Positions 34,979 to 49,940 of a stretch of DNA of 64,000 nt are shown piece by piece. Each line of letters starts with the position of its first letter. Positions within the stretch are counted from its first letter, which is position 1. A model generated the notes under the pieces. The model saw only the letters and a program-made list of their open reading frames with translations, did not search any database and had not been told where the DNA came from. The DNA is taken from positions 62,001 to 126,000 of the forward strand of contig JAPLSN010000031.1 of NCBI GenBank assembly GCA_026398615.1. The letters are read 5' to 3'. The position numbers and the translations under genes are program-made. The DNA is from Spirochaetota bacterium (lineage in GTDB: Bacteria; Spirochaetota; Spirochaetia; Treponematales; UBA12059).

Positions 34979-36481
34979 ATGAGGACAGCATCCAGGGCAA
35001 GCGCCATCGCAGCGTCCGCGTTCATGATCTTTTCGGCGTGGGCGACACAGCGGGCCGACAGCCAGCAGGCCATCGCATTTCCCCAGGAGGGAGCCGAGTT
35101 CCACATCGTGAACGCGGCATGGGAAGCTCGCCTGGCGGCCGATCCGGGGCACGCCGAACTCGTCAGGCTCTTTGCGGATTCCGCCATCGGGGAATCCTTC
35201 GCGAGGTGGCGCTTCCGTCCGCTGGGCGATGGCTCCTGGGAGATCATCAATACCGCGACGGGGAAGGTCCTGGACGTGGAAGGAGGAACCAGGGACAAGC
35301 CGGTTCCCGTCAATGCCTTCACGTCGAACGGGAGCGTCGCCCAGCGCTGGAAGCTCCAGAAGGAAGCGCAGGGCTGGCGCATCGTCGCGGTCGTCAGCGG
35401 CATGGCATTGAGCGGGAAGGGCGAACTCAAGGACCGGCGCGGTCAGGCGTTCCAGATGCCCTGGACGGGCAAGCTCACCCAGGTATGGCGGATACTCCCG
35501 GCCGTCGGCGCGCCCGAAGCCGCCAGGCCCGAGTCGAGGTTCGCGCTGAAGCATGGAGATTCGGGCTTGTTCCTCACGGTCGTCAACGAAAAGGCCGGGC
35601 CGGTTCTCGTCCTCGAGCCGCGCAAGCCCGGGGACGTCCAATCCTGGCGCTTCAGGCAGGTAGAGGGCGGCGGCGGCATGATCGTTTCCGACGCGGCGGG
35701 CCTGGTCATCGGCGTTCCGTCCGGGAAGCCAGCGCCCCAGGCCGCGCTCGGACTCGTCCAGCCTGACAACAAGCCGGGTAAGCGCTGGGCGGTCAAGCGC
35801 GAAGACAACGGCGGCATGTTCATCGTTTCCCTGGAAGGACCACTCTGCGTCCAGCCCTGGGAGGACGGCGGCAGGATCCTGGTCCGGCTCGAATCCATTC
35901 GCCGCACGCAGGACCAGCGCTGGTACGCGGTGCCCGTGGAAGGGCAGGATGGCTCGTTCGGACCGTCAGCGAAACCCGCCGGGAAGGCTTCCCAGCCGAC
36001 GCAGGATGTCTCCGGGGATGCCGCGGCGAAACCGGAAACGGCAGGCACCGCAACTGCGGCGAAGTCCCAGGGAAAGCTGGCTTCGATGGCTTCGAAGAAA
36101 CTCGCGGTGGCGCCGGTGTCCACGGTGAACAGGGACATCACGGCGGAAACCCTGCTCGTCGTGCAGGACTTCCTCATCCACGCCTTCGTGAACTACTCGC
36201 AATCCGCGGTCCTGGACCGGGGCAGCGTCGAAAAACTGCTCGCGGAATACGAGTTCCAGACGAGCGACCTGGCCGACACTTCGAAAGCCGTGCAGCTGGG
36301 CAAGCTGGCCGGCGCCGACGCCATCGTCATCGGAAGCCTCAACATGGTGGGAAGCACGTACTACCTGACGGTGAAACTCGTGTCGGTTTCCACCGGGGAG
36401 ATCCTGGCTACCGCCATCGGCGAAGGCGAGGACGCTTCGTCCTTCCTGGAAATGTGCATGGCGGCGGTCAAGGGCATGTAG
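34979..36481 (+). CDS. secreted RICIN-type lectin/CsgG-domain fusion protein
   Basis: A 500-residue exported protein; ATG 34979 follows GGAGGACCGGGC and begins a signal peptide (MRTASRASAIAASAFMIFSAWA). Residues about 40-165 and 185-325 are two RICIN beta-trefoil-like repeats (QxW turns: RWRFRPLGDGSWEI, QRWKLQKEAQGWRI, QSWRFRQVEGG, QRWYAVPVEG). After an Ala/Pro/Ser linker (330-365), residues about 370-500 resemble the CsgG/LpoB-type domain: KLAVAPVSTVN, LLVVQDFLIHAFVNYSQSAVLDRG, VEKLLAEYEFQTSDLADTSK, KLAGADAIVIGSLNMVGST and VKLVSVSTGEILAT. The combination suggests a carbohydrate-binding envelope protein; it is unusual. Monocistronic. Confidence 0.8.
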   Translation: MRTASRASAIAASAFMIFSAWATQRADSQQAIAFPQEGAEFHIVNAAWEARLAADPGHAELVRLFADSAIGESFARWRFRPLGDGSWEIINTATGKVLDVEGGTRDKPVPVNAFTSNGSVAQRWKLQKEAQGWRIVAVVSGMALSGKGELKDRRGQAFQMPWTGKLTQVWRILPAVGAPEAARPESRFALKHGDSGLFLTVVNEKAGPVLVLEPRKPGDVQSWRFRQVEGGGGMIVSDAAGLVIGVPSGKPAPQAALGLVQPDNKPGKRWAVKREDNGGMFIVSLEGPLCVQPWEDGGRILVRLESIRRTQDQRWYAVPVEGQDGSFGPSAKPAGKASQPTQDVSGDAAAKPETAGTATAAKSQGKLASMASKKLAVAPVSTVNRDITAETLLVVQDFLIHAFVNYSQSAVLDRGSVEKLLAEYEFQTSDLADTSKAVQLGKLAGADAIVIGSLNMVGSTYYLTVKLVSVSTGEILATAIGEGEDASSFLEMCMAAVKGM

Positions 36482-36562: not shown

Positions 36563-38575
36563 TCAGAATTCCACCGAACGGACCAGGGCATCGTATTCCC
36601 CGGACTTCTTGAGCGAGTCCACCGCGGCCTGGATTTCGGCGACAAACGATTCCGGGGTAGCGCGGTTGAAAACCGCGTAGAGTTCGCCCGGTATCTCGTC
36701 GAGCTTGAATGCCCGTTTCATGGCGTCGCGGGGGCGCTGCATCACCTGGAGGAGGTACTCCACGCCTTCCTGGGTGAGGGGCAGGGCATCGGCCTTGCCG
36801 TTGAGGACGGTAAGGAGGGATTCGGACACGTCCCTCGTGTAATGGAGCTTTCCCTTCTCGTCGAGGCCTTTCCCCGCCAGGTAGTTGCCGAGACCGTCCC
36901 CGCGTACGACCGCGATACGGAGTGAGGCCAGGTCCTGGAAGGAGTATATCCGCGTCTCGCTGGCCGTGGGTACGTAGACCCAGAATTCAGTCGTGATGAT
37001 AGGGCCCGCGAAACGGTATTTGGCCTGCCGTTCGGGCGTCTTGAGCAGGTTGAGGACGCAGACCGGCCGATGCGATTCCAGGCGCTCGAGGAGCCGTTCC
37101 ATGCTGTCGATCTGGAAGACCGCGCGGCGCCCGATGCGGCGGAAGACTTCGCCCATCACGGTGATGTTGTGGCCGGAGGGGATGCCGTCCTTGACGTAGT
37201 TGTACGGCGGCATGCTCTCGGCCAGCACGTTGCCGATGGCGCGGTAGCGGCCCAGGGCCTTCCGGAGGAAGGCGACGTTCCGTTCGTTCATCGCTCCGAG
37301 CCTGGCCAGGAGCGAAACCGTGCCGCCGATGCGGACGATCCCGTCGCTTACCCGGATGAGCGAAGACTCGTTCTCGTCGGCGAGGCCGCGGACCCTTTTC
37401 ATGGACTCGTCCAGAAGGGAGACGCGCTGGCCCATGTCGGCGGCCGAGCTGCGGACGAGCTCGGTCCGCTCGAGCGCGGTCGAAAGCGAGAGGCTGATCC
37501 TGCCGCCGTCCTCGCGCATGCGGCCCGTGGTATCCCTCATCTCGCCGAAACCCTCGTCCATCTCGTGCATGCCCGAGAATACTTCCGTCATGGCGGAACG
37601 GAGCCGCTCCCCGGCCTCGCTCATGGCTCCTATGGTGTCGAGCACCTTCTTGAGGTCCTGCTGCATCTTGCCCGCGTTCCTGCCGGCTTCCTCCGCGAGA
37701 TTCCTCACTTCGCTGGCCACCACGGCGAAGCCCTGGCCTGCCTGGCCGGCGTGGGCGGCTTCGATGGCGGCGTTCATGGCGAGCAGGTTCGTCCTTGCCG
37801 CCACCGCGTTGATGATCGTGATGCTTGAAAGGAGTATCTTGGCCGAATCGGCCACGACGCGGATGGATTCCAGGGTTTCGCCGAGCACCTGGCCCGAACG
37901 CCTGGCCATCTCGCCCAGTTCCTCTGCGCGGACGCGCTTGACGGAAGCCGCTCCCGCGAGGACGCCGACGCCGTCGGTGAAACCCCGGACTCCCTCCGAA
38001 GCCTCGGCGACGGAAGACGCCTGCGATTCCACGAGGGAGCCCACGTCGCGCATGAAGCCGCGGATGCCTTCGGCGGCGTGTTCGACGCCCTTCACTTCGC
38101 CGAGCAGGTCCGCGAACTCCGAGCGCATCGAGGTCGAGCCGGCTTCGATCGAACCGAGTGAAACCTGGATGTCATTGGCGCGCGCCGCGAGGTCGATGCC
38201 GATTTCCTCGCTCTGGAGCGTCCCGTTCTTGGCTTCGACGACGAAGTCGGAGAGCCCGTTCATGAACGACTCCACGCTGGCCTTGAGCCGACCGAAGCCG
38301 GCGCCGCCCGAGTTCTTTTCGAGCGCATAGACAAGCTCGACCCGTGCGGCGCCCGCGGCGTCGATGGCCTCGGCGGCGCGCACGAGGCTTTTCCTGTCGG
38401 CCGACAGCATCCACAGGGAAACGGCCAGGACGGCTGCCGCGGAAAAGACGGCTGCCGCCTCCGTGAGGAGGGGCGCCCGGACTCCAAAAAGAGCCGCGGC
38501 GAGGAGGATCCCGGACGATGCGACCGAGACTGTCCCGGCCGCGGCGAAAGCGAAAATGCGGAGCATTCTGGTCAT
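36563..38575 (-). CDS. methyl-accepting chemotaxis protein with C-terminal SBP_bac_3 domain
   Basis: A 670-residue receptor, ATG 38575 after GGAGGATCCGTG. Two helices near the N-terminus (about 5-31 and 36-56) are separated by only about 5 residues, so there is no periplasmic sensor. No obvious HAMP follows. The signalling hairpin is INAVAARTNLLAMNAAIEAA-HAGQAGQGFAVVASEVRNLAEE (about 255-300). Residues about 455-670 form a type 3 solute-binding domain (NYVKDGIPSGHNITVMGEVF, RFAGPIITTEFWVYVP, LASLRIAVVRGDGLGN, VSESLLTVLNGKADALPL). Being after the signalling helices it would be cytoplasmic. The ligand is presumably a small cytosolic metabolite such as an amino acid. Confidence 0.88.
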   Translation of the reverse strand: MTRMLRIFAFAAAGTVSVASSGILLAAALFGVRAPLLTEAAAVFSAAAVLAVSLWMLSADRKSLVRAAEAIDAAGAARVELVYALEKNSGGAGFGRLKASVESFMNGLSDFVVEAKNGTLQSEEIGIDLAARANDIQVSLGSIEAGSTSMRSEFADLLGEVKGVEHAAEGIRGFMRDVGSLVESQASSVAEASEGVRGFTDGVGVLAGAASVKRVRAEELGEMARRSGQVLGETLESIRVVADSAKILLSSITIINAVAARTNLLAMNAAIEAAHAGQAGQGFAVVASEVRNLAEEAGRNAGKMQQDLKKVLDTIGAMSEAGERLRSAMTEVFSGMHEMDEGFGEMRDTTGRMREDGGRISLSLSTALERTELVRSSAADMGQRVSLLDESMKRVRGLADENESSLIRVSDGIVRIGGTVSLLARLGAMNERNVAFLRKALGRYRAIGNVLAESMPPYNYVKDGIPSGHNITVMGEVFRRIGRRAVFQIDSMERLLERLESHRPVCVLNLLKTPERQAKYRFAGPIITTEFWVYVPTASETRIYSFQDLASLRIAVVRGDGLGNYLAGKGLDEKGKLHYTRDVSESLLTVLNGKADALPLTQEGVEYLLQVMQRPRDAMKRAFKLDEIPGELYAVFNRATPESFVAEIQAAVDSLKKSGEYDALVRSVEF

Positions 38576-38729
38576 CACGGATCCTCCAGGGAATGTCGGA
38601 CGTGCGTGCGAACGGGGTCGCCTGTGCAGGCCATCGGATTGTATCATCGGAAATGCGGGGCAGGAAGGGAAAAGGAAGCGCCGCGGCGATCGGGTTCCGG
38701 ATCCAGGGGAAGGCCGGCCCCTGCCGGCG

Positions 38730-39893
38730 TCACCAGTCCAGCTTCGAGTAGTACCCGCCGCCCATCCTGAGGTAGATGAGGAACTGGTCGGCATAGCCCA
38801 TCCTGTCCACGGATGCCGCGTAGTTCCACGAAATGCCGCCGGACATCGTTCCCAGGTATTTCAGGCCGACGAGGTCGAACCAGGAGATGAAAGGGTAGTT
38901 CTCGAGGCGAATCTCGGCGCTCGCCCCTGGCAGGAGTCCGTTTTCGAATTCCAGTAGGGATGCACGGGCGTCGAAGCGCAAGGCCATGTCCTTGCCCGAA
39001 CCGCGGATGTCGTGGATGAGGGGAAGGACGAGCCCGAACCCGAGTTCGGCCTCCCCGAATCCCACCCCCGATTCGCCGATGGCGGCCTTGGCGGACGCGG
39101 CCGTCGAGATCCAGGGCCGCGGATTCCAGGTGGCCGCGATGCCGGGCTTGAACGTGGCGTCGCGCCCCAGGAACTGCGCGGCCGGCCCCAGCTTCATCTC
39201 CCTGCCGGCCAACTCGAAGAGCTTCTCGGCCGCGAGCCGCTCGATGAATTCGGCGGACAGCATCGCGTCGGCGCGCCATCCGTTCCAGGATACATCGGCG
39301 TAGAAGCGGTCGAAGGACGTGTCCTCGGTGATCGCGCCGGAATCGGCGGACACGGTCCCGTGGTCAAGGAGGGCGGGAGGTCCGGGATCGACCATCGGCT
39401 GGACCCGCAGGACCGCTCCCAGGGTCAGCCGGTCCTCCCCGCGACGGGCCTGGACGCCGCAGAGCGCCCAGCCGGAAAACCAGCCGAGGGATGCGTCTCC
39501 GTACTCGGATCCATAATCCTCCTTCGTACGGGCATCGAGCACGAGGGCGAACATGCTCGGCAGGAAGAGGGCGCGGAACGAAATGTCGTCGACGGTCAGG
39601 AAGCGGAAGTAGAAAAATCCGTCGATGCCGGCCAGGACGCCGCCGACCTCGCCGTCCACGGAGGGCAAGTCGATCCGCCGCGTGGTCGAGAGGATGTCGA
39701 GAATGCCGAGGAGGACCGGGTCGGCCTCATCGATCCAGGAATTGTACGCGGCAAGGACGCGGGGCAGGCTGACGGCGTTCTCGCTGGCTTCCAGGTACGC
39801 GGCGGGGTCGAGGACTTGCGCGGAGCCGATGGATGCCGCGAGCAGGGCCGCGGCAAGGGCGAAGGATTTCGGATGGGCGGGAAGGGTCATCAT
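38730..39893 (-). CDS. exported outer-membrane-like protein
   Basis: A 387-residue protein with signal MMTLPAHPKSFALAAALLAASIGSA and long amphipathic beta stretches such as FFYFRFLTVDDISFRALFL, GWFSGWALCGVQARRGEDRL, AELGFGLVLPLIHDIRGSG and MSGGISWNYAASVDRMGYA, ending GGGYYSKLDW. Such spirochaetal barrels are poorly classified; I do not recognise a named family. It is upstream of the chemoreceptor gene on the same strand with a 154-nt gap. No obvious lipobox. Confidence 0.7.
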   Translation of the reverse strand: MMTLPAHPKSFALAAALLAASIGSAQVLDPAAYLEASENAVSLPRVLAAYNSWIDEADPVLLGILDILSTTRRIDLPSVDGEVGGVLAGIDGFFYFRFLTVDDISFRALFLPSMFALVLDARTKEDYGSEYGDASLGWFSGWALCGVQARRGEDRLTLGAVLRVQPMVDPGPPALLDHGTVSADSGAITEDTSFDRFYADVSWNGWRADAMLSAEFIERLAAEKLFELAGREMKLGPAAQFLGRDATFKPGIAATWNPRPWISTAASAKAAIGESGVGFGEAELGFGLVLPLIHDIRGSGKDMALRFDARASLLEFENGLLPGASAEIRLENYPFISWFDLVGLKYLGTMSGGISWNYAASVDRMGYADQFLIYLRMGGGYYSKLDW

Positions 39894-41511: not shown

Positions 41512-42798
41512 TCATATCTCCCTGGCGATGAGGTCGTCCCAAGTTTCCCTGCGCACCGAAAGCCGGTCCCTGCCTTCGCGGACCATGACCACGGCGGGGC
41601 GGGGGATGCGGTTGTAATTGCTCGCCATCGAGTGGTTGTAGGCTCCCGTCGTGAACACGGCGAGGATGTCGCCGGATTCGGGTTCGCACAACGCGATGTC
41701 GCGGATGAGGATGTCGCCCGTCTCGCAGCACTTGCCGGCCACGGTCACGACCCTCGATCGCGGTCCGTCGCACCTGTTCGCGACGATCGCGTCGTACCTG
41801 GCGCCGTAGAGCGCGGGCCGGGGATTGTCGGGCAGGCCGCCGTCGACGCCGACATAGGTCCTCACACCGGGTATCTCCTTGATCGAGCCTATCGTGTACA
41901 GGGTGATGCCGGCCTCGCCGACGATCCAGCGGCCGGGCTCGATGATCGCCCTCGGCATGGGAAGACCGTATTCGCCGCAGCGCCGTCGGACCTCGGCCAT
42001 CATCGCGTCGGTGAAATAGGCCAGCGGCTTCGGCTCGTCGGCATCCGTGTAGCGCACGCCGAAGCCGCCCCCGAGGTTCAGGTCCTTCGTCTCGAAGCCG
42101 TAATCCGCCTTCACATCCCGCATGAGCCGCGTCACCACCTCGATGGCCTTGAGGTGGGAATCGTTTTCGAGCAGCTGGGAACCGACGTGGAAATGAAAGC
42201 CCGTGAGCTCCACGCCTTTCATCGCGAGGGCCGCCCCGATGTAGCGCCCGCGTACGCGCGGATCGAGCGGTATGCCGAACTTGGAATCCAGCTGCCCGGT
42301 CGAGATGAAACGGTGGGTATGGCTGTCGACCCCGGGGGTCACGCGGAAGAGGATCTTCGCGCGCATTCCGCGTTCGAGGGCGATGGCGTTCAGGGCTTCC
42401 AGCTCGTACAGGTTGTCGACGACGACGCGCCCGACGCCGTATTCCACGGCGAGCCGGAGCTCTTCGATCGTCTTGTTGTTGCCGTGGAAAAAAATCCTGT
42501 CGCAGGGGAAACCCGCCCTGGCCGCAGCGTAGAGCTCGCCGCCCGAGACGACGTCGAGCCCGAGCCCTTCGGAAGCGACCATCCTGCACATTTCGAGGGT
42601 CTGGAAGGCCTTGCTCGCGAATACCGCGAAGGTCCACGGGTGCCGTTCGAGGAAGGTATCGCGGATCTCCCGCAGCCGTTCCCTGATGAGGGTTTCCGAC
42701 ATCACGTAGAGCGGGGTGCCGTATTTCTTCGCGAGGGCGACGGTGTCGCAGCCGTCGAACATGAAGTGACGGTCGGTCCCGGATTGCGCTCCCGCCAT
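41512..42798 (-). CDS. lysA: diaminopimelate decarboxylase
   Basis: A 428-residue PLP enzyme making L-lysine from meso-diaminopimelate. PLP lysine lies in FAVFASKAFQTLEM (about 56), the histidine in GFHFHVGSQL, the glycine loop is LNLGGGFGVRYT, EPGRWIVGEAG binds phosphate and CETGDIL carries the partner cysteine of the other subunit; NYNRIPRPAVVMV ends it. ATG 42798 overlaps the stop of the M19 dipeptidase by one base, so the pair is co-translated. The in-frame extension further upstream is antisense to nothing real and lies in the dipeptidase gene. Confidence 0.96.
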   Translation of the reverse strand: MAGAQSGTDRHFMFDGCDTVALAKKYGTPLYVMSETLIRERLREIRDTFLERHPWTFAVFASKAFQTLEMCRMVASEGLGLDVVSGGELYAAARAGFPCDRIFFHGNNKTIEELRLAVEYGVGRVVVDNLYELEALNAIALERGMRAKILFRVTPGVDSHTHRFISTGQLDSKFGIPLDPRVRGRYIGAALAMKGVELTGFHFHVGSQLLENDSHLKAIEVVTRLMRDVKADYGFETKDLNLGGGFGVRYTDADEPKPLAYFTDAMMAEVRRRCGEYGLPMPRAIIEPGRWIVGEAGITLYTIGSIKEIPGVRTYVGVDGGLPDNPRPALYGARYDAIVANRCDGPRSRVVTVAGKCCETGDILIRDIALCEPESGDILAVFTTGAYNHSMASNYNRIPRPAVVMVREGRDRLSVRRETWDDLIAREI

Positions 42799-43790
42799 CA
42801 ACCCAGTATCTCCCCTATCACGCGAAGCCAGTTGCCGCCCATGATCTTGCCGACCGTTTCGGCCGGGTGCCCCCGTTCGAGGAGGGCCGCCGTGATGCGC
42901 GGCATCTCGTCGCAGCCGCGGAGGGCGACGCCGTGCTTTTCGGTGAATCCGTCGAAATCGCTGCCGATGCCGACATGGTCGGGCCCGACGACCGAAAGGA
43001 AATGCTCGATATGCTCCACCACCCGCGGCAGGGTGACCCTGGCGGGATCCTTGTCCACGAAGATGCCGGCGAAGGTGACCGCCACGAGGCCCCCGGTGGC
43101 GGCGATGGCTTCCGCCTGGGCGTCGAGGAGGTTGCGGCGGTGATCGCAGAGGACGCGCGAGTTGGAATGGGAAGCGACGAGGGGGCGTCGCGCGACGGAA
43201 AGGAGTTCGTCGAGGGCTTCGTCCGAGAGGTGCGAGACATCGACGATCATGCCGAGCCTTTCCATCTCCGCCACGACCTTCCTGCCGAAATCCGTGAGCC
43301 CGTCGCTGCCTTCCGCGCCCACGCCGCGGGCCAATGCGTTGCGCCTGCTCCAGGTGAGGCCCATGAGGCGGACGCCGCGGGCGTAAAAGCCGCGGAGTTC
43401 GTCCATGCTCCCGCCGATCGCCTCGCCGCCTTCGATGGACACGAGGGCGGCGACCTTGCCCTCGCGCTTGGCACGGAGAATATCCGAAGCATTCAGGGCG
43501 GGGAAGAAGCGATCGCTCCGGTCGAAGGCATCCTCGACCCCGGCGAAAAGGCTCTTCGTGTAGGCGTTCGCCCCGGCGACGTTCTCGTCGTTCGTGAAGA
43601 GGGCCATGACCTGGCAGGTGACGCCGCCCTCGACCAGGCGCGGGAGATCGACATGGCCCTTCGTTTCGCGCTTGAGGAAGTCGCGAGGCGGCATGTCGTG
43701 GTCGGTGAAGCTCCTCCCGACGAGGTCGAGAGCCGTGTCGCAATGTCCATCGATGACGATGAGTTCTTCGTGGAGTTTCGCGTCAGCCAT
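42798..43790 (-). CDS. membrane dipeptidase, M19 family
   Basis: A 330-residue zinc dipeptidase. ATG 43790 (GGGGGACACC upstream) is preferred to 43922, which adds a non-family leader. Metal-binding blocks are IDGHCDTALD (HxD), SIEGGEAIGG (bridging Glu), VDVSHLSDE, ASHSNSR and GIGSDFDG. No signal peptide, so it is cytoplasmic, unlike renal dipeptidase. M19 enzymes accept D-configured second residues, in keeping with the D-amino-acid genes nearby. First gene of the pair with lysA. Confidence 0.94.
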   Translation of the reverse strand: MADAKLHEELIVIDGHCDTALDLVGRSFTDHDMPPRDFLKRETKGHVDLPRLVEGGVTCQVMALFTNDENVAGANAYTKSLFAGVEDAFDRSDRFFPALNASDILRAKREGKVAALVSIEGGEAIGGSMDELRGFYARGVRLMGLTWSRRNALARGVGAEGSDGLTDFGRKVVAEMERLGMIVDVSHLSDEALDELLSVARRPLVASHSNSRVLCDHRRNLLDAQAEAIAATGGLVAVTFAGIFVDKDPARVTLPRVVEHIEHFLSVVGPDHVGIGSDFDGFTEKHGVALRGCDEMPRITAALLERGHPAETVGKIMGGNWLRVIGEILG

Positions 43791-44007
43791 GTGGTGTCCC
43801 CCTCGCGGCGGGTTCGAGGGTAGCACGACGCCCCGGGAAACCGCAAGCTCAGGCAGCCCGTTCCGGGATTCGGTCCGTCCCGTGCCTCGCGGGCATTCCG
43901 GGAAGGACCGAAGCGCCATCAACCGAACTTGTCTTTTATGCGGATACCGCTATACTTCACGCGGATTGGCGCCGGCGACCGCGGCGGCCGAACGGAGTGA
44001 CCGGATC

Positions 44008-44736
44008 ATGAAACCCCGAATAGGAATCACCACTTTTTTCGATTCGAAGCCGCGCGGAGTCTATTCTTCGGTGGGCGATCACTACATCCGCTCGGTTTCC
44101 GCCGCCGGCGGCCTCCCCTTCATGCTGCCCACCGCGCCGTCCGAGGCGGAGCTGGGCGCCTATCTCGACGCCCTCGACGGCCTGCTTTTCACGGGAGGGG
44201 CCGACGTCTCGTCCGTCCTTTTCGGCCAGGAGCCGTCGAGGCAGGTGACGAACACCTGCCTGGCGCGGGACCGGTTCGAGCTTGCCCTGTTCGCTCTTGC
44301 CCACGAACGCGGCATGCCGGTCATGGGAATATGCCGCGGCCACCAGCTCATCAACATCGCCATGGGCGGCGACCTGTACCAGGACATCCACGCCTCGCTG
44401 CCCGACGCCGGGGGGCACAAGCAGGAGACCGACTCGATGGAGGAGCCCTACCACCACGTCGACATACTCGACGAGGAGAGCCGGATTTTCGCCGCGTTCG
44501 GCGAGCGCAGGATCCTGACCAATTCCTTCCACCACCAGGCGGTGAACCATCTGGCGCCGGGTTTGCGGGCGACCGCGCGCGCTCCCGACGGAATCCTCGA
44601 AGCCTACGAAGGCGACGATTCCAAGGGGTTCATCCTCTGTGTCCAGTTCCATCCCGAGGGTTTCACGCGGCGTTTCCCGATCTTCGTCCGCCTCTTCGAG
44701 GAGCTCGTGAAAGCCGCCGTCGCCTGGCGCGCCTGA
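44008..44736 (+). CDS. gamma-glutamyl-gamma-aminobutyrate hydrolase family (peptidase C26)
   Basis: A 242-residue class I glutamine-amidotransferase-fold hydrolase. Catalytic Cys is in VMGICRGHQLINIA (about 107), His and Glu in CVQFHPEGF (about 216-224); LLFTGGADVSSVLFGQEPS is the oxyanion loop. It cleaves gamma-glutamyl amides such as gamma-glutamyl-GABA or gamma-D-Glu peptides. ATG 44008 gives the family start (MKPRIGITT); the in-frame extension upstream to 43594 overlaps the dipeptidase and is rejected. Convergent with dppA-type aminopeptidase. Confidence 0.93.
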   Translation: MKPRIGITTFFDSKPRGVYSSVGDHYIRSVSAAGGLPFMLPTAPSEAELGAYLDALDGLLFTGGADVSSVLFGQEPSRQVTNTCLARDRFELALFALAHERGMPVMGICRGHQLINIAMGGDLYQDIHASLPDAGGHKQETDSMEEPYHHVDILDEESRIFAAFGERRILTNSFHHQAVNHLAPGLRATARAPDGILEAYEGDDSKGFILCVQFHPEGFTRRFPIFVRLFEELVKAAVAWRA

Positions 44737-44764
44737 GCGTCGACGGCAGCGCGGCCTCGGGTTT

Positions 44765-45571
44765 TCACAGGACGAAGAACAGGAATTTGAGGACGTCGAG
44801 CCAGGAGCCGGCAGCATAGGCCACTTCGTAAGGGCCTGTCTGCACGGCGCCCGGGTAGAAGGAGCCGCGATAGGCAAGATGGTGCTGCCTGAAACGGATC
44901 TCCATCCTGAATTCGTCGGGCAGCTTCAGGCAGCGGGAGTCCTTTTTCGCCGTGGCGGCGAAGGCGGCGGCGGCTTTTTCCCTTATCCGCGCCACCGCGA
45001 GGGCGGGTTGCAGGGAGATCGACGCGTTCCCCAGTCCCTCGCTGACGGCCACGGTGCCGATTCCCGGATCGAGCTTCGCCGCGCTCTCGCAGAGCAGCCT
45101 GTCTCCCGACAGGAAGAGCACGGGAACGCCGAAAAATGCCGCCGTGTAGGCGTTGATGAGGAACTCGCTCGCGAACCCGCCGTTGACGAGGACCCAGACG
45201 TTGGCGGTGTCCATCGTGTGAGCGAGCGGGTTGCCGTCCGAGCCGGCGCCGGAATGGTAGCCGACGAAGGCGGCTCCGTCGAAGCTCGAGTCGATGCCCG
45301 CCATCATGCTGAAGGGATCGCGCGTCCAGGCGCGCATGAGGCGCACGTTTTCGCTCAGCATCATCGGGTTGATGTTCCTGCCGGATCCGTGGGCGTCCTT
45401 GACGAAGATCTCCCCGACGCCCGCCTCGCAGGCGGCTTCGCAGACGGCCTGCACTTCCCTGGTCATCTGCTCCCGGAAATAGGCACCCTGCGCCTCGGCG
45501 ATTTCGGTCTCCTTCCAGTCGGCTATGCCGCAGACGCCCTCGATATCGGCGCTGACGTAGAGCTTCTTCAT
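44765..45571 (-). CDS. dppA: M55-family D-aminopeptidase
   Basis: A 268-residue zinc D-aminopeptidase of the DppA family, which releases N-terminal D-amino acids (D-Ala, Gly) from peptides and forms decameric rings. Metal-binding SADIEGVCGI (8-17), FVKDAHGSGRNINP (about 57-70), FVGYHSGAGS (about 102) and GNASISLQP are as expected. ATG 45571 overlaps the stop of the M20 gene. The pairing with an alanine racemase and a dipeptide ABC importer implies use of D-amino-acid peptides. Confidence 0.94.
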   Translation of the reverse strand: MKKLYVSADIEGVCGIADWKETEIAEAQGAYFREQMTREVQAVCEAACEAGVGEIFVKDAHGSGRNINPMMLSENVRLMRAWTRDPFSMMAGIDSSFDGAAFVGYHSGAGSDGNPLAHTMDTANVWVLVNGGFASEFLINAYTAAFFGVPVLFLSGDRLLCESAAKLDPGIGTVAVSEGLGNASISLQPALAVARIREKAAAAFAATAKKDSRCLKLPDEFRMEIRFRQHHLAYRGSFYPGAVQTGPYEVAYAAGSWLDVLKFLFFVL

Positions 45572-46767
45572 TCCGTACCTCCGGCTTTCGTGGTTTCAAG
45601 GAGACGCGACGCGATGCCCGCCTGCATCGCCACGCCGGTCACGAGGCAGTCCTCGTCGATGTCGAAGCGCGAATTGTGCAAGGGGGCCGTGATCCCCTTC
45701 GCCTCGTTCCCGCAGCCGAGGTGGTAGAAGGCTCCGGGGCGTTCCCTGATGAAGAAGGAAAAATCCTCGACGCCCATGCTCGGCTTGTCTTTCCAGCGGA
45801 CCGCGTCCTTCCCGAGCAGTTCGCCGGCCACCTCGACGATGGTGTCCACGGTCCTGTCGTGGTTGATCAGCGCCGTGTAGCCGTAGCTGAGCTCGAGCTC
45901 GCCTGAGCCCCCGAAGGAGGCCGCGACGCCCTCCACGACCGCCCGGGCTCGCGCGACGAGGGCGTCCCGCACGGCATCGCTCGTCGTCCTCATCGTGGCC
46001 GTCATCCTGACTTCGTCGGCGATTATGTTCGAGCGCTGCCCCCCCGAAATCGTGCCGATGGTGATGACGGCCTGTTCCAGGGGCGAAACGCAGCGGGCGA
46101 CCAGGGTGTTGAGCGTCATCACCACGTTGGCTGCGATGAGCACGGCGTCGATGCCCAGCTCGGGATAGGCACCGTGGGCGCCCTTGCCCCGTATCGTGAT
46201 CTTGAGCGTCGCGCTCGAGCCGTTGAGCGCGCCTTTCCTGACTTCGATGGTTCCCGTCGGGATGTAGGGCATGACGTGGAGGCCGATCACCCGGTCGACG
46301 CGCGGATTCTCGAGGCAGCCCCCGGCGATCATGATCTCGGCGCCGCCGTCGCCCTCTTCGTCGGGCTGGAAGAGCAGTTTTATGTTGCCGCGAAGGTTCT
46401 CCCGCCGCTCGGAGAAGTAACGCGCCACGCCGAGCAGGATGGCGGCATGCGCGTCGTGCCCGCAGGCATGCATGACGCCCGCGTTGCGCGAGCGGTACCC
46501 GACATCGTTCGCTTCGCTGATCGGCAGGGCGTCGATGTCGGCGCGCAAGGCCACCGTCGGTCCGCCCGAAGTCCCCTCGACGAGTCCCACAATGGACGTG
46601 CCGCCGCGCCGATGGGCTATTCCGAGCTCGTCGAGCCGGAGCGAGATGAGGTCCGACGTGGCCTTTTCACGGCGCCCGAGCTCGGGCGTCATGTGCAGCA
46701 GCCTGCGGACTTCGACCAGCCAGGGTTTCATGCCGGCGGCCGCTTCCAGTATTTCCGCCCTATCCAT
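45568..46767 (-). CDS. M20-family amidohydrolase
   Basis: A 399-residue metal-dependent amidohydrolase (IAA-amino-acid hydrolase/hippurate-type). Metal ligands in RADIDALP and HACGHDAHAAILLG, the catalytic Glu in FQPDEEGDGGAE, and a dimerisation domain containing GKGAHGAYPELGIDAV. GVEDFSFFIRERPGAFYHLG completes the site. Deacylates or cleaves N-acyl/peptidyl amino acids. Overlaps alr by 8 nt and dppA by 4 nt; the three form one operon. Confidence 0.95.
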   Translation of the reverse strand: MDRAEILEAAAGMKPWLVEVRRLLHMTPELGRREKATSDLISLRLDELGIAHRRGGTSIVGLVEGTSGGPTVALRADIDALPISEANDVGYRSRNAGVMHACGHDAHAAILLGVARYFSERRENLRGNIKLLFQPDEEGDGGAEIMIAGGCLENPRVDRVIGLHVMPYIPTGTIEVRKGALNGSSATLKITIRGKGAHGAYPELGIDAVLIAANVVMTLNTLVARCVSPLEQAVITIGTISGGQRSNIIADEVRMTATMRTTSDAVRDALVARARAVVEGVAASFGGSGELELSYGYTALINHDRTVDTIVEVAGELLGKDAVRWKDKPSMGVEDFSFFIRERPGAFYHLGCGNEAKGITAPLHNSRFDIDEDCLVTGVAMQAGIASRLLETTKAGGTE

Positions 46768-47947
46768 GCCGATCCTCCCGGTCCAGAAGGTAATCGACGA
46801 CCTCGGCCTCGCGTCCTTCGCGCAGATAGACGCGGGGAACCCTGCGCCCGATCGAGCTGATGATCTCGTTGCGGTTCGTCCCCGCCCAGTCGGCGACTTC
46901 GAGGAGGCTTATCCGCTCCCCTTCCGGTGCGCCGCCGGGCGATCCGAAGAGCAGGACCTCGTCGCCCTCGGCGACCGAGGGCACCCCGCTCACGTCGACC
47001 ATGAGCTGGTCCATGCAGATGAGGCCGACGACGGGCGCCCGGGCGCCCCGCACCAGCACGCGGGCCTTGTTCGAAAGACAGCGCTTGTACCCGTCGGCGT
47101 AGCCGACGGGCAGGGTCGCGACCAGCGCGCCTCCTGCCGGCGCAGTCCACGAGGAATCGTAGGAGACGCCTTCGCCTTCCGGCACCCGGGCAAGCCTGGC
47201 TATTCGAGACCTCAAGGCCGCCACCTCGAAAATATCCACGTCCTCGTAAAGGGGGGTTCTCATGGGCCTGACGCCGAGGAGAACGGCGCCCGCCCTCACC
47301 ATGTCGAGCCTGTACTCCGGGTAGCGCATGAGCCCGATGCTGTCGCAGACGTGCCGCAGGGGGAAGGAAACGCCCAGGCTTGCCGCGCCGGAGACGATCT
47401 CCATGAAGAGATCGAACTGTCTCCGGTCGGAATCGGCGTCGCGCAGCGCGAGGTGGGTGAATATGCCCCCGAGCTCGAGGCCCGGGAGCGCGGCCATGCG
47501 GGCAAGCAGCCCGGGAGTATCGGGGCCGGGTACGATGCCGAGCCGGTGCATGCCCGTATCCAGCTTGACATGGGCGCGGGCGCGGCAGCCCAGGGAGACG
47601 GCGATCCGCGAGAGGATCCGGGCCTGCCGCAGGCCGGAGATCGTCGTCACGAGGTCCTGCCTTACCGCATGGCCGAGGTACTCGTCGGGAGTATGCCCCA
47701 TGACCAGAACGGGAACGCCCGCGAAATGCCCGCGAAGCTCGATGGCTTCGGGGAGGCAGGCCACGGCCAGCATGTCCACGCCCCCGGCGAGGAGTTCTTT
47801 CGCCACACGGACCGCGCCCAGCCCGTAGCCGTCGGCCTTGAGCACCGCCGCGAGCAGCGGTGCCGGCGAGCCCAGCATCCCGCGCACTTCGCGCAGGTTG
47901 TGCCCGATGGCGTCGAGATCGACCTCGAGGCGCGTGCTTCTCGTCAT
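46760..47947 (-). CDS. alr: alanine racemase
   Basis: A 395-residue PLP racemase interconverting L- and D-alanine. PLP lysine in VLKADGYGLGAVRVA (about 41), substrate tyrosine in EGVSYDSSWTAPAG, and HVKLDTGMHRLGI plus ICMDQLMVDVSG are family blocks. ATG 47947 is preferred; the in-frame upstream codons to 48160 lack similarity. As part of an operon with M20 and M55 enzymes it may serve D-alanine catabolism as much as wall synthesis. Confidence 0.95.
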   Translation of the reverse strand: MTRSTRLEVDLDAIGHNLREVRGMLGSPAPLLAAVLKADGYGLGAVRVAKELLAGGVDMLAVACLPEAIELRGHFAGVPVLVMGHTPDEYLGHAVRQDLVTTISGLRQARILSRIAVSLGCRARAHVKLDTGMHRLGIVPGPDTPGLLARMAALPGLELGGIFTHLALRDADSDRRQFDLFMEIVSGAASLGVSFPLRHVCDSIGLMRYPEYRLDMVRAGAVLLGVRPMRTPLYEDVDIFEVAALRSRIARLARVPEGEGVSYDSSWTAPAGGALVATLPVGYADGYKRCLSNKARVLVRGARAPVVGLICMDQLMVDVSGVPSVAEGDEVLLFGSPGGAPEGERISLLEVADWAGTNRNEIISSIGRRVPRVYLREGREAEVVDYLLDREDRHG

Positions 47948-48040
47948 CGGGCGGCTTCCGGGGCCGTGATTTCCGGTAGATGCATCCCGCGCATTATACA
48001 GCAGGCCCGGCCAGCGTCCAGAAAAATCGCGCGAACCCGT

Positions 48041-48069
48041 TTGACGAATCGCCCGGGCGGTGGAATACT
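48041..48069 (+). promoter_or_regulatory. promoter of the peptide ABC-importer operon
   Basis: TTGACG (48041-48046), 17-nt spacer, AATACT (48064-48069), 50 nt before ATG 48120. GGGGGGACATTGAG gives the ribosome-binding site. Confidence 0.65.
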
Positions 48070-48119
48070 GTTCCGTTGATGCTCTTGCACAATCCATCTT
48101 GCCCAGGGGGGACATTGAG

Positions 48120-49940
48120 ATGAAGAAACTCCTCGTACCGCTCTGCATCATTTTCGCCATCGCTGCCGCGATGCCCGTCGCCGCCCAGAGGAAGTCGGCG
48201 GACTACAGCACGCTCTACGCGGGCGAGCTTTCGACGGTCAATTACTTCAACTCGGCTTCGGAAAACGAACAGATCATGTCGGCCAACACGGTCGACGGGC
48301 TGGTCGAGTACGACAGGTACGGCATCGTCCGGCCTTCGCTCGCGAAGGCCTGGACGACCTCGCCCGACGGCCTCGTGTGGACCTTCACCCTGAAGCCGGG
48401 CCTCAAGTGGGTGACCTGGGAGGGCAAGGATTACGCGGAGGTCGTGGCCCAGGACTGGGTGGACTCGGCCAAATATTTCATGACCAAGGCGAACGCCTCC
48501 CCCACGGCCGACATCATCTACGGCATCGTCAAGAACGGCGAGGCCTATTTCAAGGGCACCGTAACCGATTTCGGGCAGGTAGGCGTCAAGGCCAAGGACA
48601 AGTACACCCTCGAGTACACCCTCGCGAAGCCCGTGCCCTACTTCCTCTCGATGCTGACCTACGTGTCATTCCTCCCGGTCAACGGCAGGTTCCTGGCCGA
48701 GCAGGGCTCGAAATTCGGCACCGACAACAAGGCGATGCTCTACAACGGCGCCTACATCATGACGGTCTTCGAACCCCAGGTCAGCCGCGAGCTCGTCAGG
48801 AACGAAAAGTACTGGGACAAGGCCAATGTCCCCATCAAGCGCCTCATCTTCAAGTACAACAAGGAGATGAGCACCCTCGGTCCCGAGCTCTTCGCCCGCG
48901 GCGAGATAACCTACATCGGCATTCCGAGCTCGATCATCGATACCTGGCTGAAGGATCCCGCCAGGAAGGATCTGGTGCGACCTTCGCGCGTGAGCGCCTA
49001 TACCTATTTCTATGCCCTCAACTTCAGCCCGAAATTCCCGGCCGAATACGGGCCCGAAAACTGGGCGGTCGCGGTCAATAACCTTTCCTTCCGCAAGGCC
49101 CTTTTCCACTCGCTGGACCGCAAGGCGGCCATGCTCACCTCCGAACCCTACACGCCCGAGCGCCGGCTCCAGACCACCATCACCCCGCGCAACATCATCG
49201 GGAGCGGCGGCAAGGACTATGTCGACATGGCGGAGCTGGCGGCCATGACCAGGACCGAGTCCTTCAACAAGGCCAAGGCCCTCGAGTTCAAGGCCAAGGC
49301 GATGAAGGAGCTTGCCGGCAAGGCCAGTTTCCCCGTCAAGATCCCGATGCCCTACAATTCGAGCAGCACCGAGTGGACGAACCGGGCGCAGGTCGTCGAG
49401 CAGCAGCTCGAGACCCTCCTCGGCAAGGACTTCATCGACGTCATCCCGCTGTCCTTCCCTGCGACCGGCTTCCTGGGCGCCACCCGCCGGGCCGGCAACT
49501 ACGCCATGCAGGAATGCAACTGGGGTCCCGACTACGCCGATCCCGAGACCTACACCGATCCCTTCGTCACGGGCTCGAACTACAACTGGCCCGAGCTCGC
49601 GCAGGGCTACGCCGAGGCGAACGGCAAGTCCAAGTACGAAAACATGGTCGATGCGGCCAAGGCCGTCGTGACCGACATGAAGAAGCGCTATGAACTCTTC
49701 GCCAGGGCGGAGGCATACTTCATCGACCAGGCCTTCGTGATCCCCTATGCCCTCGGCGGCGGCGGGTATGAAGGGTCCAAGCTCGAGCCTTTCACCTGCC
49801 CCTTCGCCCAATTCGGGATGTCCAACCTGAAGTTCAAGGGCCAGATCGTCCGTGACAAGGCATACTCCACGGAGGAGTACACCAGGCTCGAGGCAGCCTG
49901 GAACGCGGAACGCCTGGCCGCGCTGCAGAAGGCCAAGTAG
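48120..49940 (+). CDS. peptide ABC transporter substrate-binding protein (family 5)
   Basis: A 606-residue solute-binding protein of the OppA/DppA type. Signal peptide MKKLLVPLCIIFAIAAAMPVAAQ with no lipobox, so it is a free periplasmic protein. Family 5 blocks are SENEQIMSANTVDGLVEYDR, IVRPSLAKAWTTSPDGLVWT, FTLKPGLKWVTWEGKDYAEV, YNGAYIMTVFEPQVSRELVR and NWGPDYADPETYTDPF. ATG 48120 is set by GGGGGG and the signal sequence. First gene of a five-gene importer operon, separated from the permease genes by a MITE-like insertion. Confidence 0.93.
   Translation: MKKLLVPLCIIFAIAAAMPVAAQRKSADYSTLYAGELSTVNYFNSASENEQIMSANTVDGLVEYDRYGIVRPSLAKAWTTSPDGLVWTFTLKPGLKWVTWEGKDYAEVVAQDWVDSAKYFMTKANASPTADIIYGIVKNGEAYFKGTVTDFGQVGVKAKDKYTLEYTLAKPVPYFLSMLTYVSFLPVNGRFLAEQGSKFGTDNKAMLYNGAYIMTVFEPQVSRELVRNEKYWDKANVPIKRLIFKYNKEMSTLGPELFARGEITYIGIPSSIIDTWLKDPARKDLVRPSRVSAYTYFYALNFSPKFPAEYGPENWAVAVNNLSFRKALFHSLDRKAAMLTSEPYTPERRLQTTITPRNIIGSGGKDYVDMAELAAMTRTESFNKAKALEFKAKAMKELAGKASFPVKIPMPYNSSSTEWTNRAQVVEQQLETLLGKDFIDVIPLSFPATGFLGATRRAGNYAMQECNWGPDYADPETYTDPFVTGSNYNWPELAQGYAEANGKSKYENMVDAAKAVVTDMKKRYELFARAEAYFIDQAFVIPYALGGGGYEGSKLEPFTCPFAQFGMSNLKFKGQIVRDKAYSTEEYTRLEAAWNAERLAALQKAK

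Follow-up and report, generated by a model that had tools for sequence, protein, structure and literature searches.

The gene studied here lies on the minus strand at positions 36563–38575 of the window, the 64,000-nucleotide stretch of DNA that was analysed. It is a complete fusion of a chemoreceptor and a solute-binding (SBP) domain, and its open reading frame, with exactly these bounds, encodes a protein of 670 aa, designated P0001. Inspection of the sequence placed a Shine-Dalgarno motif, GGAGG, at 38583–38587 on the same strand, 7 nt ahead of the ATG at 38575; translation could also begin at an in-frame GTG at 38578. The convergent neighbour on the plus strand (34979–36481) encodes a 500-aa product with an apparent signal peptide, in which three RicinB_lectin_2 stretches and a CsgG-like region form an unusual combination. 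Upstream of P0001, the minus-strand gene at 38730–39893 encodes a 387-aa product with an apparent signal peptide, a barrel-like C-terminus and no Pfam match.

Five segments were distinguished in P0001, all encoded on the minus strand. Kyte-Doolittle analysis located transmembrane (TM) helix 1 at residues about 7–33 (38477–38557) and TM helix 2 at residues about 36–59 (38399–38470). They are followed by a degenerate HAMP-like segment at residues 60–93 (38297–38398), recognized by alignment with the HAMP of related receptors, and by the MCP signalling hairpin at residues 94–445 (37241–38296), within which Pfam MCPsignal matched residues 220–342 with 88.4 bits against a cut-off of 34.6. The C-terminal SBP_bac_3 domain occupies residues 446–670 (36566–37240), with a Pfam match of 51.1 bits at residues 452–665 against a cut-off of 26.4. 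The solved structures closest to P0001 were MCP hairpins (E to 7e-19) and amino-acid-binding proteins. The receptor part had a GC3 of 0.85 and the SBP part one of 0.84, both similar to that of the neighbouring genes, and therefore gave no sign of chimeric assembly.

Only a few residues lie between the two TM helices, which are almost adjacent as the initial annotation had described, and thus P0001 has no periplasmic sensor domain, leaving SBP_bac_3 as its only recognizable sensor and, as also claimed earlier, its only ligand-binding-like part. Hydropathy analysis detected no TM-like window after residue 75; the highest value, 1.56, was found at the hairpin tip, where a hydrophobic peak is a normal feature of MCPs. 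In the stretch between the hairpin and the SBP the top value was 1.23, in a window containing Arg and Asp, and neither a signal peptide nor a TM segment was detected by hydropathy directly before the SBP domain. A third TM helix between the signalling region and the SBP, the feature that would speak against a cytoplasmic domain, was looked for and is absent, so the SBP should be cytoplasmic by the predicted topology. The positive charges, Arg at the N-terminal end and Arg/Lys following TM2, are those expected for an N-in, C-in orientation. By this prediction the domain has neither the export signal nor the extracytoplasmic placement of SBP_bac_3 proteins.

The signalling part of P0001 matches that of the ordinary receptors of its lineage. 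Residues 94–445 aligned with them nearly without gaps, at about 30% identity over about 350 residues, and the hairpin tip, TNLLAMNAAIEAAHAG, is nearly identical to that of its relatives, so that P0001 should fit normal arrays. It has, in other words, the conserved hairpin with a highly conserved tip that is expected of an MCP. The ordinary relatives carry a periplasmic sensor and HAMP, and related receptors end at the very residue where the SBP of P0001 starts. Pfam HAMP gave no match in P0001 up to E = 1, and the degenerate HAMP-like stretch still aligns. The layout in the initial annotation stood, and the degeneracy of HAMP is a point added to it; HAMP is not obligatory for MCPs. The canonical methylation motif [ASTG][ASTG]xx[EQ][EQ]xx[ASTG][ASTG] was absent from P0001, while it was present at equivalent places in six of the seven related receptors and in the second fusion described below. 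Because an ordinary receptor (L036) also lacks the motif, its loss does not disqualify P0001 as an MCP; adaptation of P0001 may be unusual or absent. The genome gave 2 CheA, 6 CheW-domain, 3 CheR and 4 flagellin matches. Since both chemotaxis partners and a motor are thus encoded, P0001 most likely feeds chemotaxis.

A search for the same architecture at the class level (395 genomes, SBP part as query) revealed a second fusion of 678 aa, L083, in a genome (G453) of another family of the same class. It consists of two close TM helices with a short loop between them, HAMP at residues 64–114, MCP at 231–390 and SBP at 458–678, and no hydrophobic segment was found between its hairpin and SBP either. 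P0001 (residues 125–666) and L083 were joined by one continuous BLASTP alignment (E 5e-60), and in both proteins 193 residues separate the hairpin tip from the PYNY motif of the SBP. With a complete SBP domain, no third TM helix and the same layout in L083, the earlier placement of the SBP after the signalling hairpin on the cytoplasmic side holds at the level of sequence. In the trees, both fusion hairpins fell into one receptor clade (support 98/96), and both fusion SBPs grouped with the same free SBPs. The tests did not reject a single origin (p-AU 0.24 and 0.27), with which the two fusions are compatible.

The fusion is otherwise rare in the genomes searched. It was found in 0 of 22 other genomes of the same family, and neither the SBP part nor the whole protein as query retrieved a second fusion from 59 related genomes, in which the best matches outside the P0001 gene did not extend beyond the receptor part and typically spanned residues 94–445. 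A whole-protein scan of the contigs of its own genome gave only two matches, to the MCP tip. No second fusion was found at the phylum level; with four to seven candidates scored per genome in the phylum and class searches, the apparent rarity is an estimate of limited sensitivity. For other phyla, the coverage consisted of plasmid and phage records plus one pattern-based scan. With P0001 as query the plasmid and phage records gave SBP-type matches only, the L083 matches among plasmid records included Treponema receptors, which together with the receptor type would fit a spirochaete, and a scan of viral contigs found no SBPs. One suspected second fusion (G402:C25, L079) was rejected, since the domain at the C-terminus of this MCP is hemerythrin. 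The open-access literature searched gave no description of a membrane-anchored MCP that ends in an SBP_bac_3 domain.

The SBP fold of P0001 is complete by profile, covering SBP_bac_3 positions 6–126 of 132. The SBP part alone matched amino-acid-binding proteins of the PDB with E down to 2e-9, among which AncQR aligned over 8–218 of 224. AlphaFold models made without an alignment reached mean pLDDT values of 48 and 38, too low to be informative. The closest relatives of the domain are free, exported, single-gene SBPs of the PPYNY type with apparent signal peptides, the best being L042 at 28% identity. The other two large SBP_bac_3 proteins of the genome are sensor kinases, in which the SBP is N-terminal and outside the membrane. 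Among the residues of amino-acid recognition, the carboxylate-binding Arg in TPER was the sole clear one retained, and the amine-binding Asp was not at its usual place in sequence alignments, so that the ligand need not be a plain alpha-amino acid. As a consequence of the predicted topology, P0001 would most likely read a cytosolic ligand. Upstream of the P0001 gene, with other genes in between, the minus strand at 42798–48160 carries a cluster encoding an M19 dipeptidase, an M55 D-aminopeptidase, an M20 peptidase and an alanine racemase, a possible hint that the metabolites of interest are D-amino acids or peptides.

Ligand binding by the P0001 domain could be altered or lost. The SBP-like domain might then have a structural role or act as a docking site, for instance for another cytosolic protein or the membrane-proximal bundle, and the receptor would be constitutive or a relay member of the array. 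The long branch of the P0001 SBP in the tree, the partial loss of amino-acid pocket residues, the lost methylation motif and the degenerate HAMP are all in keeping with such a role, but the profile shows the whole fold to be retained, including PPYNY, the TPER arginine and the GP motif, and the same fusion with the same geometry occurs in L083, whose SBP retains more family residues than that of P0001. We regard the loss of binding as unlikely, though it is the most probable of the alternatives.

Genes for a receptor and an SBP are also found side by side elsewhere, which makes such a pair a plausible precursor of the fusion. Fusion look-alikes from tblastn in Salinivibrio and Vibrio were rejected, as each proved to be two adjacent genes: a receptor gene followed by an exported SBP gene, after a gap of 27 bp in Salinivibrio and 21 bp in Vibrio. 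The Salinivibrio pair is surrounded by further SBPs and a diguanylate cyclase. In Salinivibrio kushneri (L113, NZ_CP114589.1, 45723–51198) the cluster runs SBP, MCP, SBP, diguanylate cyclase, and an extra SBP gene runs in the other direction. ABC transporter genes are missing from the stretch shown, and the cluster represents orphan SBPs grouped with signalling genes. A same-strand MCP gene lay beside a free SBP of this group at 4 of 16 loci (L086, L094, L096 and L098; a raw count). These gene pairs point to an orphan SBP family that probably serves chemotaxis and not transport, a role that is testable. By analogy with them, the fusion most likely arose from neighbouring genes for a receptor and its partner SBP with loss of the export signal, and without its signal peptide the fused SBP would end up in the cytoplasm. 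In the tree the fused hairpins had closer relatives than the MCPs of the gene pairs, so the origin from a gene pair is an analogy and not a traced event.

The occurrence of such pairs, the draft state of the genome (43 contigs) and the lack of the fusion in the other family members would also suit a one-off accidental fusion, or an assembly error that joined a receptor gene with an adjacent SBP gene. This explanation is very improbable in view of the unbroken frame, the uniform GC3 across the junction, the proper ribosome-binding site, the absence of any signal peptide left at the junction and, from an independent genome, the matching layout and spacing of L083. That the SBP lies outside the cell after all, through an unrecognized membrane passage or an odd topology with a periplasmic C-terminus, is hardly credible: nearly all SBP_bac_3 domains lie outside the cytoplasm and apparent signal peptides occur in the free relatives, but in both P0001 and L083 the hairpin-to-SBP stretch is without a hydrophobic segment, the hairpin has to be cytoplasmic to reach CheA, and its connection to the SBP is just a few residues long.

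P0001 is probably a chemoreceptor that has lost its external sensor and carries a cytoplasmic binding module at its tail end, a real and rare design. We consider it reasonably likely that P0001 is a membrane-anchored chemoreceptor whose only recognizable sensor is a cytoplasmic C-terminal SBP of the Venus-flytrap type, and that the signal passes via the C-terminal helix. The short TM hairpin would anchor the protein, and the signalling hairpin would project into the cytoplasm, where its tip should contact CheA/CheW. Because the antiparallel hairpin folds back, its C-terminal end would be located near the membrane, and the SBP would be joined there with almost no linker. On binding a small molecule inside the cell, the closing SBP would put strain on the C-terminal helix of the bundle, or rotate it, and thereby change CheA activity; the signal would enter by this helix and not by the TM2-HAMP route. 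Ligand binding and this direction of signalling are what we infer from the architecture. More tentatively, P0001 and L083 may belong to a rare but recurring class in which a binding-protein fold was relocated to the cytoplasm and wired to the C-terminal MCP helix, so that the cell would steer by the level of an internal metabolite after uptake, with neither a periplasmic sensor nor canonical methylation sites. If so, the solute-binding fold works as a cytosolic chemotaxis sensor, and P0001 offers a natural construct for asking how a C-terminal ligand domain of the MCP bundle controls CheA.

In chemotaxis mediated by binding proteins, as in BasT/BasB and CosT/CosB of Halobacterium and in Tar with the maltose-binding protein, an SBP likewise informs the chemoreceptor, and the genes of the two can be neighbours. 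The SBP of those systems is a separate, extracytoplasmic protein that docks on a periplasmic domain, whereas that of P0001 is fused and predicted to be cytoplasmic. This theme has been described (PMC9602780), and cytosolic proteins matching SBP profiles are known from the same source. SBP_bac_3 also acts as a direct sensor in the BvgS-type sensor kinases (PMC5829827) and in RmcA (PMC8846402); in these the domain is periplasmic, unlike the predicted location in P0001.

Sensors at the C-terminus of MCPs are established as well. DcrH of Desulfovibrio vulgaris (PMC9388753) is membrane-anchored, with an MCP hairpin followed by a cytoplasmic C-terminal hemerythrin sensor, and P0001 has the same layout by its predicted topology. 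DcrH, however, contains a periplasmic region too, and its diiron site senses oxygen or redox, while P0001 has no periplasmic domain and its sensor is a Venus-flytrap solute-binding domain. A DcrH-like chemoreceptor with a C-terminal hemerythrin domain was seen in the same class, in the 761-aa frame of L079, and by eye another receptor with a C-terminal hemerythrin-like sequence adjoins the free SBP gene at L094. TlpD-type receptors of Helicobacter pylori carry a C-terminal CZB domain (PMC6715182, PMC13001251); like P0001 they read the cytosol with a sensor placed after the signalling hairpin, but TlpD is soluble and its CZB domain binds zinc. Among archaeal chemoreceptors, a ligand-binding domain placed C-terminal to the MA domain is a recognized arrangement, and SBP_bac domains occur among chemoreceptor sensors (PMC9680633); the text consulted there describes no receptor with a short TM hairpin and a C-terminal SBP_bac_3. 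Since C-terminal sensors on chemoreceptors are already known, with hemerythrin in DcrH and CZB in TlpD, P0001 is a variation on an established layout, and what appears new in it, going by the open-access literature, is the type of sensor, SBP_bac_3, at the C-terminus of a membrane-anchored MCP.
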